Shown in pieces: positions 28,653 through 49,642 of a stretch of DNA of 64,000 bases. Under the pieces are notes generated by a model, which had not been told where the DNA came from, did not search any database, and saw nothing but the letters and a program-made list of their open reading frames with translations. How positions within the stretch are numbered: the stretch's first letter is position 1; the number at the start of each line of letters is the position of its first letter. A program made the translations under genes and the position numbers. The stretch lies in assembly GCF_014495845.1 (NCBI RefSeq), contig NZ_CP061080.1, positions 3,958,001-4,022,000 of the forward strand, in the 5' to 3' direction. This DNA comes from Aquibium microcysteis (GTDB lineage: Bacteria; Pseudomonadota; Alphaproteobacteria; Rhizobiales; Rhizobiaceae).

Positions 28653-28847
28653 TCAGTGCGCGCCGAGCGCGGACGGTGCGACGTGGCAGAGCACCAGCAG
28701 AAGGTAGAGCAGCGCACTCCCGACATAGATGCGGCAGAAATCGCCATGGCCGTCGTGGCGGGCGATCTGCGCGGCAAAGATGTAGTTGCTGGCCAGCGCG
28801 AGATAGACGGACAGCGTGGAGTCGTGAGAAAGAAGAAGCGAGAGCAT
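28653..28847 (-). CDS. Small two-helix membrane protein of unknown function
   Basis: A 64-residue product beginning MLSLLLSHDSTLSVYLALAS. Two hydrophobic segments (about 11-26 and 43-58) are separated by a short polar loop with His/Asp (ARHDGHGDFC). An upstream ATG at 28916 would add a polar Arg-rich extension, so 28847 is preferred, with AAAGG nearby. No family recognised with certainty. It is divergent from the large STAND ATPase gene, 119 bases away, so a functional link is possible but unproven. Confidence 0.5.
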   Translation of the reverse strand: MLSLLLSHDSTLSVYLALASNYIFAAQIARHDGHGDFCRIYVGSALLYLLLVLCHVAPSALGAH

Positions 28848-28921: not shown

Positions 28922-28968
28922 GGAAAGGCGGAAACGGGACGGACCGGTTCGGAAAGGTTTGGAAAGGT
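28922..28968 (+). repeat. Three GGAAAGG direct repeats before the STAND ATPase gene
   Basis: GGAAAGG occurs at 28922, 28951 and 28961 in the 119-base gap between the small membrane protein and the STAND ATPase. The middle copy is at Shine-Dalgarno distance (9 bases) from the GTG start at 28967; the others may be binding sites or chance. Confidence 0.35.
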
Positions 28969-31855
28969 GGCCTCGAAGAAACCGCCGACGGGTCGGGACG
29001 AATCCGCGCCGCCCCCCTTTTTCGAATGCCTCGATTTCCATCTGAAGTTCGGAACCCGCCCCGGCGGCTCGCCCGACCGGGCGGGCGTCGAATGGACGGT
29101 GAAGGCCTTCGCGGAGGCGTCCGGCGTCGACGAGCGGACCGTCCGGAACTGGCGAATCGGCGCGACGAAACCGGGTTCCGACGACGTCGCTCGGATGGAG
29201 GGCATTCTCTTCGGCGACGATCCGGCCTTTGCCGAATGGCGAGCCGAATTCCGGACCGCTCCCCGCGTCAGGCGCGTGAAGGCCAAGACGGCTCCGGCAG
29301 CGGCCGCGGAAGCTAAATCCTCACCGCACAAGCCGCGCAACCTCCCCTTCGCCTCCCTCGGCAGCCTGTTCAAGGGCCGCGCGGACGAACTGGCGCGCCT
29401 CCACGCGGCCCTTTCGGCCGGCGGCTCCGACGGCATCGCCATCGCCGGCCATGCGCTGCATGGGCTCGGCGGCATCGGCAAGACGCAGCTTGCGATCGAG
29501 TATGCCCATGCCCATGACGAGGATTATCGCGCGCTGCTCTTCCTTCCTTGCGGCAGCCCGCAACTCGTCGCATCCGGCCTCGCCGCTCTGGCCGGGTCCG
29601 ACGTGCTGGATCTGCCCGAGCAGCACGAGACCGACGAAGCCCGACGGGCGAATGCCGCCCTGCGCTGGCTGAGCGCCAATCCCGGCTGGCTCCTGATCCT
29701 CGACAACGTGGACGACGAGGCCGCGCTGGCCGCGATGGAAGCCCTGCGGCCGAGGCTAAAGGGTGGCAGCGTGCTCATCACCGGCAGGCTGAATGCCTGG
29801 CCGGCCGGCGTGGCCTCGATCGAGCTGGACGTGCTCGACCCGGATTCGGCCGCGGCCTTCCTTCTCGACCGGACCGAAGGCGCCCGCCGGAAGACCCCGG
29901 ATGATGGAGCCCGCGCGGCCGACATCGCACGGGAACTGGACGGGCTGGCCCTGGCCCTCGCCCAGGCCGCCGCCTACGTCTGCGTGACCCGGATCTCGCT
30001 CGGCCAGTATCTCGATCGGTGGCGCAGCCGTCGCGACGAGGTCGCCCAATGGTTCGATCGCTCGCTGGTCAGCTACAACCACGACGTCGGTTTCGCGGCC
30101 ACATGGGCCACTTCCGTGGAGCACCTGTCGGACGCCGGCCGGGCCTTGCTGGAGCGTCTGGCCTTCATGGCCCCGGAGCCGATTCCCGACGTCCTTTTCG
30201 ATGCCGGGGGCGCGAGCAAGGCCCGGGACGAACTCATGCGCTACTCGCTGGTGAAGCGGACGGACCTCAGCGGCGGCACCCTGCCCGGCGTCGGCATGCA
30301 TCGGCTGGTGCAGCAGCAAAGCCGGTCCGCAATGCCGGCTGGGCGCCGAGAGGAGGCCCTGAAGGAGGTACTGGACTGGCTCTTGCCTATATTCGCCTCC
30401 GGCTCGACCGCCAGCGACGCCCTGCCGCTGTTGACGCTGTTGGTCCCGCATGCCGAGGCCGTCACCGCACACCTCGATGCGAGCGCCGGGCCATTCGACA
30501 CCGGCCTGCGTCGCAAGCTGCTGATCCTACACGGCACGCTCGGCGACGTTCATGCCAACCGCGGCAATCTTCGGCAGGCAGCGGTTGATTTCGACCGCGC
30601 CGTACGAGATGCGGAACGACTGGTCGATATCGACCCGGCGAACACCGAGTGGCAGCGCGATCTCTCGGTCAGCCTCAACAAGCTCGGCGACGTCGAGCTT
30701 CGACTCGGCAACGGCGACGCCGCCCTCGACGCCTGCCGCAAGGGCCTCGCCATCCGCGAGATGCTCGCTCTCCGCGACTCGACAAACACCGACTGGCAGC
30801 GCGATCTCTCGGTCAGCCTGAACAGGATCGGCGACGTCGAGCTTCGGCTCGGCAACGGCGACGCCGCCCGCGACGCCTTCCGCAAGGGCCTCGCCATCGC
30901 CGAGGCGCTCGCCCTCCGCGACCCGGCGAACACGCAATGGCAGCGCGATCTCTCGGTCAGCCTGGACAGGATCGGCGACGTCGAGCTTCGGCTCGGCAGC
31001 GGCGACGCAGCTCTCGACGCCTACCGCAAGAGCCTCGCCATCCGCGAGATGCTCGCCCGCCGCGACCCGGCGAACACGCAGTGGCAGCGCGATCTCTCAG
31101 TCAGCCTGACCAAGATCGGCGACGTCGAGCTTCGGCTCGGCAATCGCGACGCCGCCCTCGACGCCTACCGCAAGGGCCTCGCCATCCGCGAGATGCTCGC
31201 CCGCCGCGACCCGGCGAACACCGTCTGGCAGCGCGATCTCTCGGTCAGCCTGACCCAGATCGGCGACGTCGAGCTTCTGCTAGGCGACGGAGACGCCGCC
31301 CTCGACGCCTTCCGCAAGAGCCTCGCCATCCGCGAAGCGCTCGGACGCCGCGACCCGGCGAACACCGAGTGGCAGCGCGATCTCTCGGTCAGCCTGAACC
31401 GGATCGGCGATTTCGATTTGCGGCTCGGCAACGGCGACACCGCTCTCGACGCCTTCCGCAAGGGCCGCGCTATCGCCGAAGTGCTCGCCCGCCGCGACCC
31501 GGCGAACACGGAGTGGCAGCGCGATCTCTCGATAAGCCTTAACAAGATCGGCGACGTCGAGCTTCGGCTCGGAGACGCCGACGCCGCCCGCGACGTCTTC
31601 CGCAAGGGCCTCGCCATCGCCGAGGCGCTCGCCCGCCGCGACCCGGCGAATACCGAGTGGCAGCGCGATCTGATCATCTCGAACGTCAAGCTCGCCGAAG
31701 CTGGCGACCGGCCCGCCGAGCGATACCGAGCCGCGCTGGCGATCGCCGAGGAACTGCAGGGCGCGGGCCGGCTGGCGCCGACTGACGGTGGGATGATCGA
31801 CGAACTGAAGCGGCGGCTGGCCGGTGCCGGCAACAGCCCGGAAGGCAGCGCGTGA
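28967..31855 (+). CDS. STAND (NB-ARC-like) ATPase with N-terminal HTH and 48-residue TPR-like repeats
   Basis: A 962-residue multidomain protein of the signal-transduction ATPase class that includes AfsR-type regulators and bacterial NLR-like defence proteins. The start is GTG 28967; the frame is open to 28643 but that stretch is antisense to another gene and not protein-like. Residues 20-90 form a helix-turn-helix-like domain (KAFAEASGVDERTVRNWRIG). The NTPase has Walker A GLGGIGKT (166-173) and Walker B LLILDNVDD (about 242-250), followed by winged-helix sequence and an MHD-like MHRLVQ (444-449). From 562 to 897 there are seven units of exactly 48 residues starting WQRDLSVSL. No toxic effector domain (TIR, nuclease, protease) is visible. 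Ligand and output unknown. Confidence 0.9.
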   Translation: MASKKPPTGRDESAPPPFFECLDFHLKFGTRPGGSPDRAGVEWTVKAFAEASGVDERTVRNWRIGATKPGSDDVARMEGILFGDDPAFAEWRAEFRTAPRVRRVKAKTAPAAAAEAKSSPHKPRNLPFASLGSLFKGRADELARLHAALSAGGSDGIAIAGHALHGLGGIGKTQLAIEYAHAHDEDYRALLFLPCGSPQLVASGLAALAGSDVLDLPEQHETDEARRANAALRWLSANPGWLLILDNVDDEAALAAMEALRPRLKGGSVLITGRLNAWPAGVASIELDVLDPDSAAAFLLDRTEGARRKTPDDGARAADIARELDGLALALAQAAAYVCVTRISLGQYLDRWRSRRDEVAQWFDRSLVSYNHDVGFAATWATSVEHLSDAGRALLERLAFMAPEPIPDVLFDAGGASKARDELMRYSLVKRTDLSGGTLPGVGMHRLVQQQSRSAMPAGRREEALKEVLDWLLPIFASGSTASDALPLLTLLVPHAEAVTAHLDASAGPFDTGLRRKLLILHGTLGDVHANRGNLRQAAVDFDRAVRDAERLVDIDPANTEWQRDLSVSLNKLGDVELRLGNGDAALDACRKGLAIREMLALRDSTNTDWQRDLSVSLNRIGDVELRLGNGDAARDAFRKGLAIAEALALRDPANTQWQRDLSVSLDRIGDVELRLGSGDAALDAYRKSLAIREMLARRDPANTQWQRDLSVSLTKIGDVELRLGNRDAALDAYRKGLAIREMLARRDPANTVWQRDLSVSLTQIGDVELLLGDGDAALDAFRKSLAIREALGRRDPANTEWQRDLSVSLNRIGDFDLRLGNGDTALDAFRKGRAIAEVLARRDPANTEWQRDLSISLNKIGDVELRLGDADAARDVFRKGLAIAEALARRDPANTEWQRDLIISNVKLAEAGDRPAERYRAALAIAEELQGAGRLAPTDGGMIDELKRRLAGAGNSPEGSA
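30650..31657 (+). repeat. Seven tandem 144-bp coding repeats (48-residue TPR-like units)
   Basis: Trp codons of WQRDLS begin at 30650, 30794, 30938, 31082, 31226, 31370 and 31514 and again at 31658, an exact 144-base period with no indels. Each unit contains GDVELRLG.GDAA.DA.RK.LAI.E.LA.RDPANT, a helix pair like a TPR plus an extra 14 residues. Nucleotide identity between units is high, implying recent duplication or gene conversion. A degenerate unit precedes (about 30530-30649) and a truncated one follows. Confidence 0.93.
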
Positions 31856-32052: not shown

Positions 32053-32448
32053 ATGAAGCACCTCACGATCGCCGCCGCCTTCACCGCCATCGTCGCCGTC
32101 AGCGCCGCAGCCATTGCCGCGCAGGACGACGCCCGCCCCGTCGGCGAGCCGTCGCCCGAACGTTTCGCCTACACCGAGACGGCCGCCCCGTCCGTCCCCG
32201 CCCCGCCCGCATCGAGCCTGAACCTCTGCGGCGAGCGCGAGCGGATGGTGCGCGATCTCGACCGCGAGTTCCACGAGCTGCCGCTCGCCTCCGGGCTGGT
32301 CGACGAGGACGCGGTGATGGAGATCTTCGTTTCGGCCGCGGGCACCTGGACGATCCTCGCCACCGGCACCGACGGCCTGTCCTGCGTGATGGCAGTGGGC
32401 GAAGGTTTCGACGCGGCTGCCCCGCGCGTGCTGGGCGTCGGCGCCTGA
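32053..32448 (+). CDS. Exported protein of unknown function
   Basis: A 131-residue product with a clear signal peptide (MKHLTIAAAFTAIVAVSAAAIAA) and a ribosome-binding site ACAGGAG 10 bases before the ATG. After a Pro-rich linker, the folded part begins CGERERMVRDLDREF and contains DEDAVMEIFVSAAGTWTILATG and a second Cys in GLSCVMAVGEGF, so one disulfide is likely. Similar short exported proteins occur in alphaproteobacteria, but I know no function. It stands alone, tail to tail with the GntR gene. Confidence 0.85.
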   Translation: MKHLTIAAAFTAIVAVSAAAIAAQDDARPVGEPSPERFAYTETAAPSVPAPPASSLNLCGERERMVRDLDREFHELPLASGLVDEDAVMEIFVSAAGTWTILATGTDGLSCVMAVGEGFDAAAPRVLGVGA

Positions 32449-49512: not shown

Positions 49513-49622
49513 CAAATCCGCGACGAGTTGAAGACTCCGAGCAGCCGACCGGGACGCCAAGCGGCATAGATCGATCCCGGAGGCCAACACCCGGCAGCGC
49601 GAAGCGCCCCCGGGTGCTTTTT
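49513..49622 (+). ncRNA. Candidate small RNA upstream of ffh
   Basis: About 110 bases between a consensus-like promoter and an intrinsic terminator, with no start codon plus ribosome-binding site inside. Besides the terminator it can form the stem CCGGGA (49549-49554) with TCCCGG (49575-49580). It lacks SRP-RNA hallmarks (GGAA tetraloop domain) and is not 6S-like by eye. It could instead be a terminated leader of ffh. Not matched to any named RNA. Confidence 0.42.
49588..49622 (+). terminator. Intrinsic terminator upstream of ffh
   Basis: CACCCGG (49588-49594) pairs with CCGGGTG (49610-49616), with an inner GCGC-GAA-GCGC stem, followed by CTTTTT. It lies 168 bases past the hydrolase stop and 112 bases before ffh. 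Confidence 0.85.
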
Positions 49623-49642
49623 GGCTTTGGGCGGTTCGGTAC

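Follow-up and report, generated by a model that had tools for sequence, protein, structure and literature searches.

What might an ATPase with a DNA-binding head regulate, and what is the tiny membrane-protein gene that faces it? The question arises from a locus of Aquibium microcysteis, in a stretch of 64,000 nucleotides (NZ_CP061080.1, positions 3,958,001 to 4,022,000; the window). Here an open frame at 28967..31855 on the plus strand encodes a protein with an N-terminal helix-turn-helix (HTH) module, a STAND ATPase core and C-terminal tetratricopeptide repeats (TPRs). A reading made from the sequence alone had proposed an undescribed sensing or defence protein, and the frame it gave held, with 962 codons from a GTG start. 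The locus is compact (~3.2 kb), and the phased repeats that lie between its two genes suggest a self-controlled sensing switch.

A phased GGAAA array between two divergent genes

The repetition of GGAAA was first noticed by reading the DNA upstream of genes that carry the HTH module, hereafter module genes. In the window, a candidate operator at 28922..28965 (plus strand) holds direct repeats beginning at 28922, 28930, 28951 and 28961 and reaches the GTG start; all four copies are intact in Aquibium sp. ELW1220, whose locus (L002), being orthologous to the window, is left out of the locus counts. The strict pattern GGAAAN4-6GGAAA was found within 160 bp upstream of the module at 6 of 14 loci, compared with 1 of 423 windows at open reading frame (ORF) starts and 0.11% of 20,000 windows drawn at random from these loci. 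Upstream of the module GGAAA ranks first among all tandem 5-mers, and the runners-up overlap it. Four of the 14 loci have no GGAAA in these 160 bp and two have a single copy. When the windows were widened to 430 bp and locus L101 was added, the strict tandem was present at 7 of 15 module loci versus 1 of 338 control genes, all with 250 codons or more (0/112 from the same loci, 1/226 from 45 other loci), the controls being longest open frames rather than annotated genes. The module loci are not all independent: L092 and L093 share neighbours, as judged by reading, and L078, L094 and L096 are of one PAN type. Merging lineages by hand left the tandem in 6 of 11 and a small transmembrane ORF in 6 of 11. 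The pattern occurs once in the window (0.05 expected), and a scan of the bacterium's own genome for a possible regulon returned 25 matches against 12 in the control.

The copies share a strand and a rhythm. On the sense strand of the gene 28 copies were counted, with TTTCC occurring only three times in the same regions, and the 31 pair distances (up to 63 bp) cluster near 10, 20, 30 and 40 bp and leave 13-18, 23-28 and 32-38 bp empty. This helical phasing was reached in none of 5000 permutations and is not explained by codon phase, the score being 0.29 at a period of 3 versus 0.80 at 10.1. In silico, a direct-repeat operator layout with helical phasing, of the kind expected for MalT- and GutR-type regulators, is present. 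Tandem GGAAA was also seen inside the PAN-type genes of L078, L094 and L096, 383-455 bp beyond the point where the module begins; the internal tandem of L078 and of L096 has the same letters as the upstream copy of L096.

On the minus strand lies the tiny divergent membrane protein of the sequence-only reading, which proved to be real and conserved. It is best read as 64 residues with two hydrophobic segments, starting at 28847 and ending at 28653 behind GGAAAGG-8 nt-ATG, rather than as an 87-residue ORF, in which Pfam found only a sub-threshold Rhomboid match (E 0.0026). A profile built from four such proteins (window, L002, L092 and L101) detects a fifth in L093 with E 4.6e-16. The 10,814 translated segments searched, which include those of 45 other loci, contain no further significant match; the candidate in L074 was not recovered, and the next score belongs to L075 (E 0.46), in the expected place. 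The five proteins of known context, from four genera, all stand head-to-head with a module gene and have GGAAA copies between both starts. Alignment of seven sequences, these five plus P0139 and P0140, revealed ten invariant residues besides the initiating Met and one Leu, among them H34, Y41, S44, A45 and H55. A search of 397 genomes gave two matches, both already in the profile and hence no independent support, and a protein database gave two proteins among three candidates.

We also applied a looser rule, a divergent ATG-initiated ORF of 45-95 residues with a hydrophobic 19-mer. It was satisfied at 6 of 14 module loci versus 4 of 104 control genes (Fisher p 1.5e-4), namely the window, L074, L075, L077, L092 and L095, and it failed to detect the homologues of L093 and L101. 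In L074, L075, L077 and L095 the ORFs resemble the small protein in place, size and hydropathy; homology is not shown for them. Conservation and placement mark the 64-residue protein as a conserved companion of module genes.

The sole new locus of the last genome search, L101 from Methylocapsa (G1372), was met after both patterns had been defined. Its GGAAA copies stand at -90, -69, -61 and -51 from the module, the array includes GGAAAGGTTTGGAAA, letter-identical to the window, and a divergent 62-residue homologue of the small protein is present. The STAND protein of L101 is 47% identical over 89% of residues 1-560 and carries TPRs of another type.

The HTH head, STAND core and TPR array

The N-terminal module (residues 17-97, 29015..29257, plus strand like all parts of this gene) is of XRE type. 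In an AlphaFold2 model of the protein (mean pLDDT 86.9, pTM 0.75) the HTH helices are residues 45-52 and 56-64, the module adopts the five-helix fold of the XRE/Cro-C1 family, and its nearest folds among the matches listed are mostly XRE-type DNA-binding proteins. The HTH-like N terminus of the earlier reading is thereby borne out by the model check it had proposed; Pfam HTH_3 scores the module below cut-off (15.6 bits vs 23). The NB-ARC/AP-ATPase nucleotide-binding core follows (residues ~128-370, 29348..30076), with the Walker A motif GLGGIGKT at residues 166-173 (29462..29485) and the Walker B motif LLILDNVDD at 242-250 (29690..29716), whose D246 is invariant in 46 sequences. A winged-helix region matches DUF7779 (residues 383-458, 30113..30340; 32.6 bits, cut-off 27) and contains MHRLVQ at 444-449, with R446 of this HR motif invariant in 46 aligned sequences. 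All three motifs that the sequence-only reading named are thus present. A STAND core with a TPR superhelix is seen in the model and in fold comparison, and the P-loop, Walker B, helical domain, winged helix with HR/MHD-type motif and superstructure sensor place the protein in the AP-ATPase/NB-ARC class.

No enzymatic effector domain was found by a Pfam scan, as had been supposed. DUF4062 is without a match at E up to 1, the HTH occupying the head position, and so are the SARP ODB and BTAD domains. The top NCBIfam score belongs to NF040586, the TPR protein of FxSxx-COOH systems, and PADLOC-DB 2.0.0 gave no convincing system model at E up to 1, the only matches being weak ones to JetC1 (E 0.0037, residues 673-709) and a generic TPR model (E 0.0084, residues 524-599). 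The choice of start codon is not settled between the GTG and a TTG 32 codons upstream, which yields the 994-residue database version P0001; it is immaterial to the analysis because the conserved domain begins at about residue 17 of the GTG form.

The core was compared with its relatives using residues 1-560 as query; 7994 candidates were scored, 431 matched and the best 120 of these were examined. Of these, 119 retain Walker A, 117 have a Walker-B-like pattern and 111 the HR motif; a loss of Walker residues in most homologues, which would have counted against the sensing or defence role first proposed, was thus not seen among them. Their heads differ: 87 are DUF4062-like by an N-terminal signature, 13 are short or truncated, nine fit the HTH signature, and the remaining 11 comprise P0002 and P0018 (HTH by sequence), four TIR_2 and five Mrr_cat proteins. 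Six of the DUF4062-like proteins were tested and match Pfam DUF4062 with E 5.5e-6 to 0.0042, one of them above cut-off. In metagenomic P0002 the frame of an aldehyde dehydrogenase fragment continues into the HTH-STAND protein, whose module lacks its first part; this fusion reflects either a deletion or an assembly error.

The module itself was followed with the HTH region of P0009, which matched 21 proteins among 210 candidates. Judged by eye, these have cores of three or more STAND types, except for P0133 and P0134, in which no STAND core is seen. A module profile found matches in 2 of 385, 8 of 397 and 3 of 398 genomes drawn at class, order and phylum level, and in 6 of 228, 2 of 20 and 3 of 74 family-level genomes. 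The draws overlap, the bacterium's own genome is among the matches of the class, order and phylum draws, and the counts are lower bounds, as the searches score the best first-look candidates per genome. Two queries gave no match on 72,556 plasmid records. Pfam was run on 13 module proteins from the genome searches. Those of L074, L075, L079, L092 and L093 have TPRs and NB-ARC/AAA-type cores (some matches below cut-off), that of L080 has NACHT and pentapeptide repeats, that of L077 has leucine-rich repeats (LRRs), those of L078 and L094 have PAN domains (below cut-off in L096), and those of L073, L076 and L095 have no Pfam match. Because the bodies behind it differ in this way, the HTH head is a mobile, exchangeable module, joined to several STAND cores or to NACHT-pentapeptide, LRR or PAN parts. 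With E up to 1 allowed, HTH_3 matches half of 18 module sequences (nine, the best with E 0.0018), and no Pfam family covers more than nine, the best E of any being 0.00033.

Two groups of these proteins deserve separate mention. The product of L077:6609-8930 joins the module to a long array of near-alike leucine-rich repeats, a second high-identity repeat array. The PAN-type proteins of L078:2871-4808, L094:6215-7936 and L096:4677-5735 also have a transmembrane segment, by reading of the sequence, and the L094 and L096 genes have neighbours whose products, on reading, resemble conjugation coupling proteins.

The C-terminal array had been described as seven exact 48-residue repeats. Seven units with strict 48-residue spacing were confirmed (residues 556-891, 30632..31639; Tandem Repeats Finder period 144, 7.2 copies, 87% matches), whereas exactness was rejected: identity between the units is 73-90% at the protein level and 84-92% at the DNA level, and a degenerate eighth unit follows at 31640..31783 (31-42% identity to the others). 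The units are TPRs (Pfam TPR_12 E 9.9e-27, TPR_10 E 2.8e-22). Inheritance position by position was considered and rejected, since units at the same position in the window and ELW1220 arrays resemble each other no more than other pairs do (identity 0.857 on the diagonal against a mean of 0.864 over all pairs); the TPR units show no positional orthology, and therefore units exchange or turn over within arrays. Between the two cores synonymous divergence (dS) is 0.245 and non-synonymous divergence (dN) 0.062, giving dN/dS 0.25 (HTH 0.23, NTPase 0.21). Uncorrected pN/pS is 0.51-0.61 within and between arrays and 0.28 for the core by the same counts, so the array units change faster in protein than the core. 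Diversifying selection is not supported as such by values below 1, which indicate relaxed or faster change instead; the pattern fits a changing binding surface or relaxed constraint, and positive selection is not proven.

Taking the domains, motifs, predicted fold, array and partner as observed, we infer DNA binding, the direction of control, the ligand and the job of the small protein as follows. The protein may be a STAND-type transcription switch that binds the shared intergenic array, controls both itself and the two-transmembrane gene, and is ATP-gated and multimerising; this is the proposal with the best support, and we give it an even chance of being right. At rest, ADP and the arm/TPR part would keep the protein monomeric. 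A ligand, either a host stress signal or an invader protein, would engage the TPR superhelix, allowing ATP exchange and multimerisation. The multimer would align its HTH heads on one face of the DNA and bind the phased repeats cooperatively, in the manner of MalT boxes or of the 11/22-bp SARP repeats. The STAND gene would be repressed by occupancy of its own start region, and the small gene would be activated from sites ~50-140 bp upstream of its start (a distance obtained by arithmetic from the locus coordinates). The two-transmembrane protein would be the output, as a membrane effector or as a membrane-bound partner that feeds back.

Genomic site and competing explanations

The STAND gene lies within a single 6.1-Mb contig. 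In the window and in ELW1220 it stands after an aldehyde dehydrogenase gene and before a 131-residue gene, which follows directly in the window (32053-32448) and after ~4 kb more in ELW1220. The extra sequence (L002:10866-14870) carries a CHAT-domain gene (E 1.2e-50) and an oppositely facing EF-hand gene; these were set aside as parts of the system, being absent in the window and, for the EF-hand gene, oppositely oriented. The congener G003 has the counterparts of the two flanking genes ~0.36 kb apart and no STAND gene between them, an empty site, and in G001 and G002 (the latter 69% complete), likewise without a match, 1.5-1.6 kb of different sequence fills the place. Counting the bacterium's own, 2 of 81 genomes have relatives at E <= 1e-20. 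Eight of ten flanking ORFs had Pfam matches and two had none; among the matches were branched-chain amino-acid ABC transporter parts, proline racemase, FAD oxidoreductase, GGDEF/EAL and M50 peptidase. An 'ECF sigma' label was a guess, with no Pfam support in the ORF tested. That the gene belongs to a metabolic operon was rejected, as its neighbours adjoin without it in G003, and module genes elsewhere stand in varied contexts (translations read by eye) rather than consistently in metabolic operons.

The surroundings of other module genes bear on a first alternative, that the protein is an anti-phage relative of nucleotide-binding leucine-rich-repeat (NLR) proteins. Here the TPRs would sense a phage component, the STAND core would oligomerise, the two-transmembrane protein or DNA action of the HTH would kill or arrest the cell, and the array would silence the pair until needed. 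We searched ten neighbouring ORFs, chosen by eye from three module loci, with PADLOC. In L073 an Argonaute-associated SIR2 protein (E 0), a short pAgo (E 3.6e-144) and a type II methyltransferase were found, the SIR2 and pAgo genes (L073:14083-18383) lying near a 507-residue HTH-module gene without Pfam domains. L080 has AbiEi/AbiEii neighbours, and L076 gave only PDC-M24B (E 4.4e-5). Known defence genes thus lie beside two of the three partly scanned loci; the window locus sits among metabolic genes.

Defence is also favoured by the DUF4062-like, TIR_2 and Mrr_cat heads (87, 4 and 5 of the best 120 of 431) on the same core, DUF4062 being reported as an antiphage NADase, Swarozyc, in a preprint (PMC13174449). 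The patchy distribution with its empty site, the integrase- or transposase-like genes read by eye near module genes, and the turnover of the repeat array since the split from ELW1220 point the same way. Against it stand the lack of a convincing PADLOC match for the protein, the metabolic neighbours in the window, phased repeats that indicate transcription control, and a neighbour scan limited to ten ORFs, in which the third locus gave one weak match. Anti-phage defence for this locus is plausible and unproven, and as a full account we regard it as a tentative possibility.

A bolder proposal, which we hold doubtful, joins defence to the transcription switch. Module genes would form a two-gene immune switch family in which an NLR-like sensor, with an interchangeable TPR, LRR or NACHT body and a DNA-binding head that occupies a phased operator of its own, responds to an invader by turning on a back-to-back gene for a two-transmembrane effector of 62-76 residues. 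Descriptions of bacterial NLR-like defence proteins usually include a fused effector domain. If the proposal is true, immunity would act through NLR-controlled transcription of a membrane toxin rather than through a fused enzyme.

A metabolic or stress regulator of the GutR/MalT kind seems unlikely. It would sense a small molecule or protein and control host genes elsewhere, with the small membrane protein as co-regulator; GutM, named with GutR in the title of a cited reference, may offer a parallel for that role. The architecture and the phased direct repeats fit, the PAN relatives with the same module, repeats and a transmembrane segment resemble membrane-anchored regulators, and the window neighbours are transporter and amino-acid genes. 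However, no conserved neighbour besides the small gene was seen, the aldehyde dehydrogenase and 32053-32448 genes adjoin without the STAND gene in G003, and the distribution is accessory. Last, it is very improbable that GGAAA is a mere purine-rich translation-start sequence of an ordinary HTH-STAND-TPR protein with an incidental divergent ORF: GGAAAGG does lie at Shine-Dalgarno distance for both genes, yet the tandem occurs in just 1 of 338 control genes, its phase follows the helical turn and not the codon, the L092 and L093 copies stand away from the start, and the small protein is conserved in sequence in four genera.

Two observations lie apart from this locus. Outside the window, near 5182440-5183280 of the same genome (L098:12444-13274), there is a CRISPR-like repeat array whose repeated element contains CTCAAACGGGGAAAAGCCCAGA, and an Rfam match to the ffh small RNA (56.3 bits) falls at 49573-49624 of the window.

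Comparison with known systems

The sequence-only reading went too far in seeing no match to a named system, as the HTH-STAND-TPR build is already known from MalT, GutR and AfsR. Titles and abstract openings of open-licence literature, partly sampled, contained no description of the module family, the phased repeats or the head-to-head small protein. In GutR the HTH is N-terminal and the TPRs are C-terminal; the boxes to which MalT binds are direct repeats. Like these regulators, the window protein unites a DNA-binding HTH, a STAND ATPase and a TPR-like sensor in one chain; it differs in its XRE-type HTH of a family of its own, in an AP-ATPase/NB-ARC core with DUF7779, in the divergent two-transmembrane partner, and in that no linked sugar operon was seen among the window ORFs examined. 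AfsR (SARP-NOD-TPR, where NOD is the nucleotide-binding oligomerisation domain) likewise has an N-terminal DNA-binding part, a NOD and TPRs, together with phased direct repeats (PMC10936776, excerpt), whereas the window protein lacks a SARP ODB/BTAD match, is alphaproteobacterial and faces another repeat sequence. SARP direct repeats are described there as 11 or 22 bp apart, and an excerpt of PMC4381067 states that MalT binds MalT boxes cooperatively after multimerising; the GGAAA layout is like the former and consistent with the latter.

Among immune proteins, Avs, bNACHT and CARD-NLR systems share a STAND core, a superhelical sensor and an exchangeable head with the window protein, and TPR-like repeats are reported for LypB of Caulobacter, from a CARD-NLR-like system (PMC13236601, excerpt). 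In the window protein the place of their nuclease, CARD or other effector is taken by a DNA-binding head, and PADLOC gave no convincing match. The FxSxx-COOH TPR protein (NF040586) gives the best NCBIfam score over residues 135-501, at 198.3 bits against a cut-off of 300, and a TIR domain is reported at the N terminus of the FxSxx AP-ATPase in an excerpt of PMC7159879, which also mentions HTH domains in the effector position of conflict systems. The DUF4062 (Swarozyc-type) STAND-TPR proteins have the same NB-ARC core with the LPFASLGSLFKGR motif and DUF7779 and differ in a DUF4062-like head where the window protein has its HTH. The immune and the gene-regulatory branches of STAND proteins would thereby be joined within one family, in which one core occurs with DUF4062-like, TIR or Mrr heads and also with a DNA-binding head that is accompanied by a predicted operator and, in several genera, by a small membrane partner.

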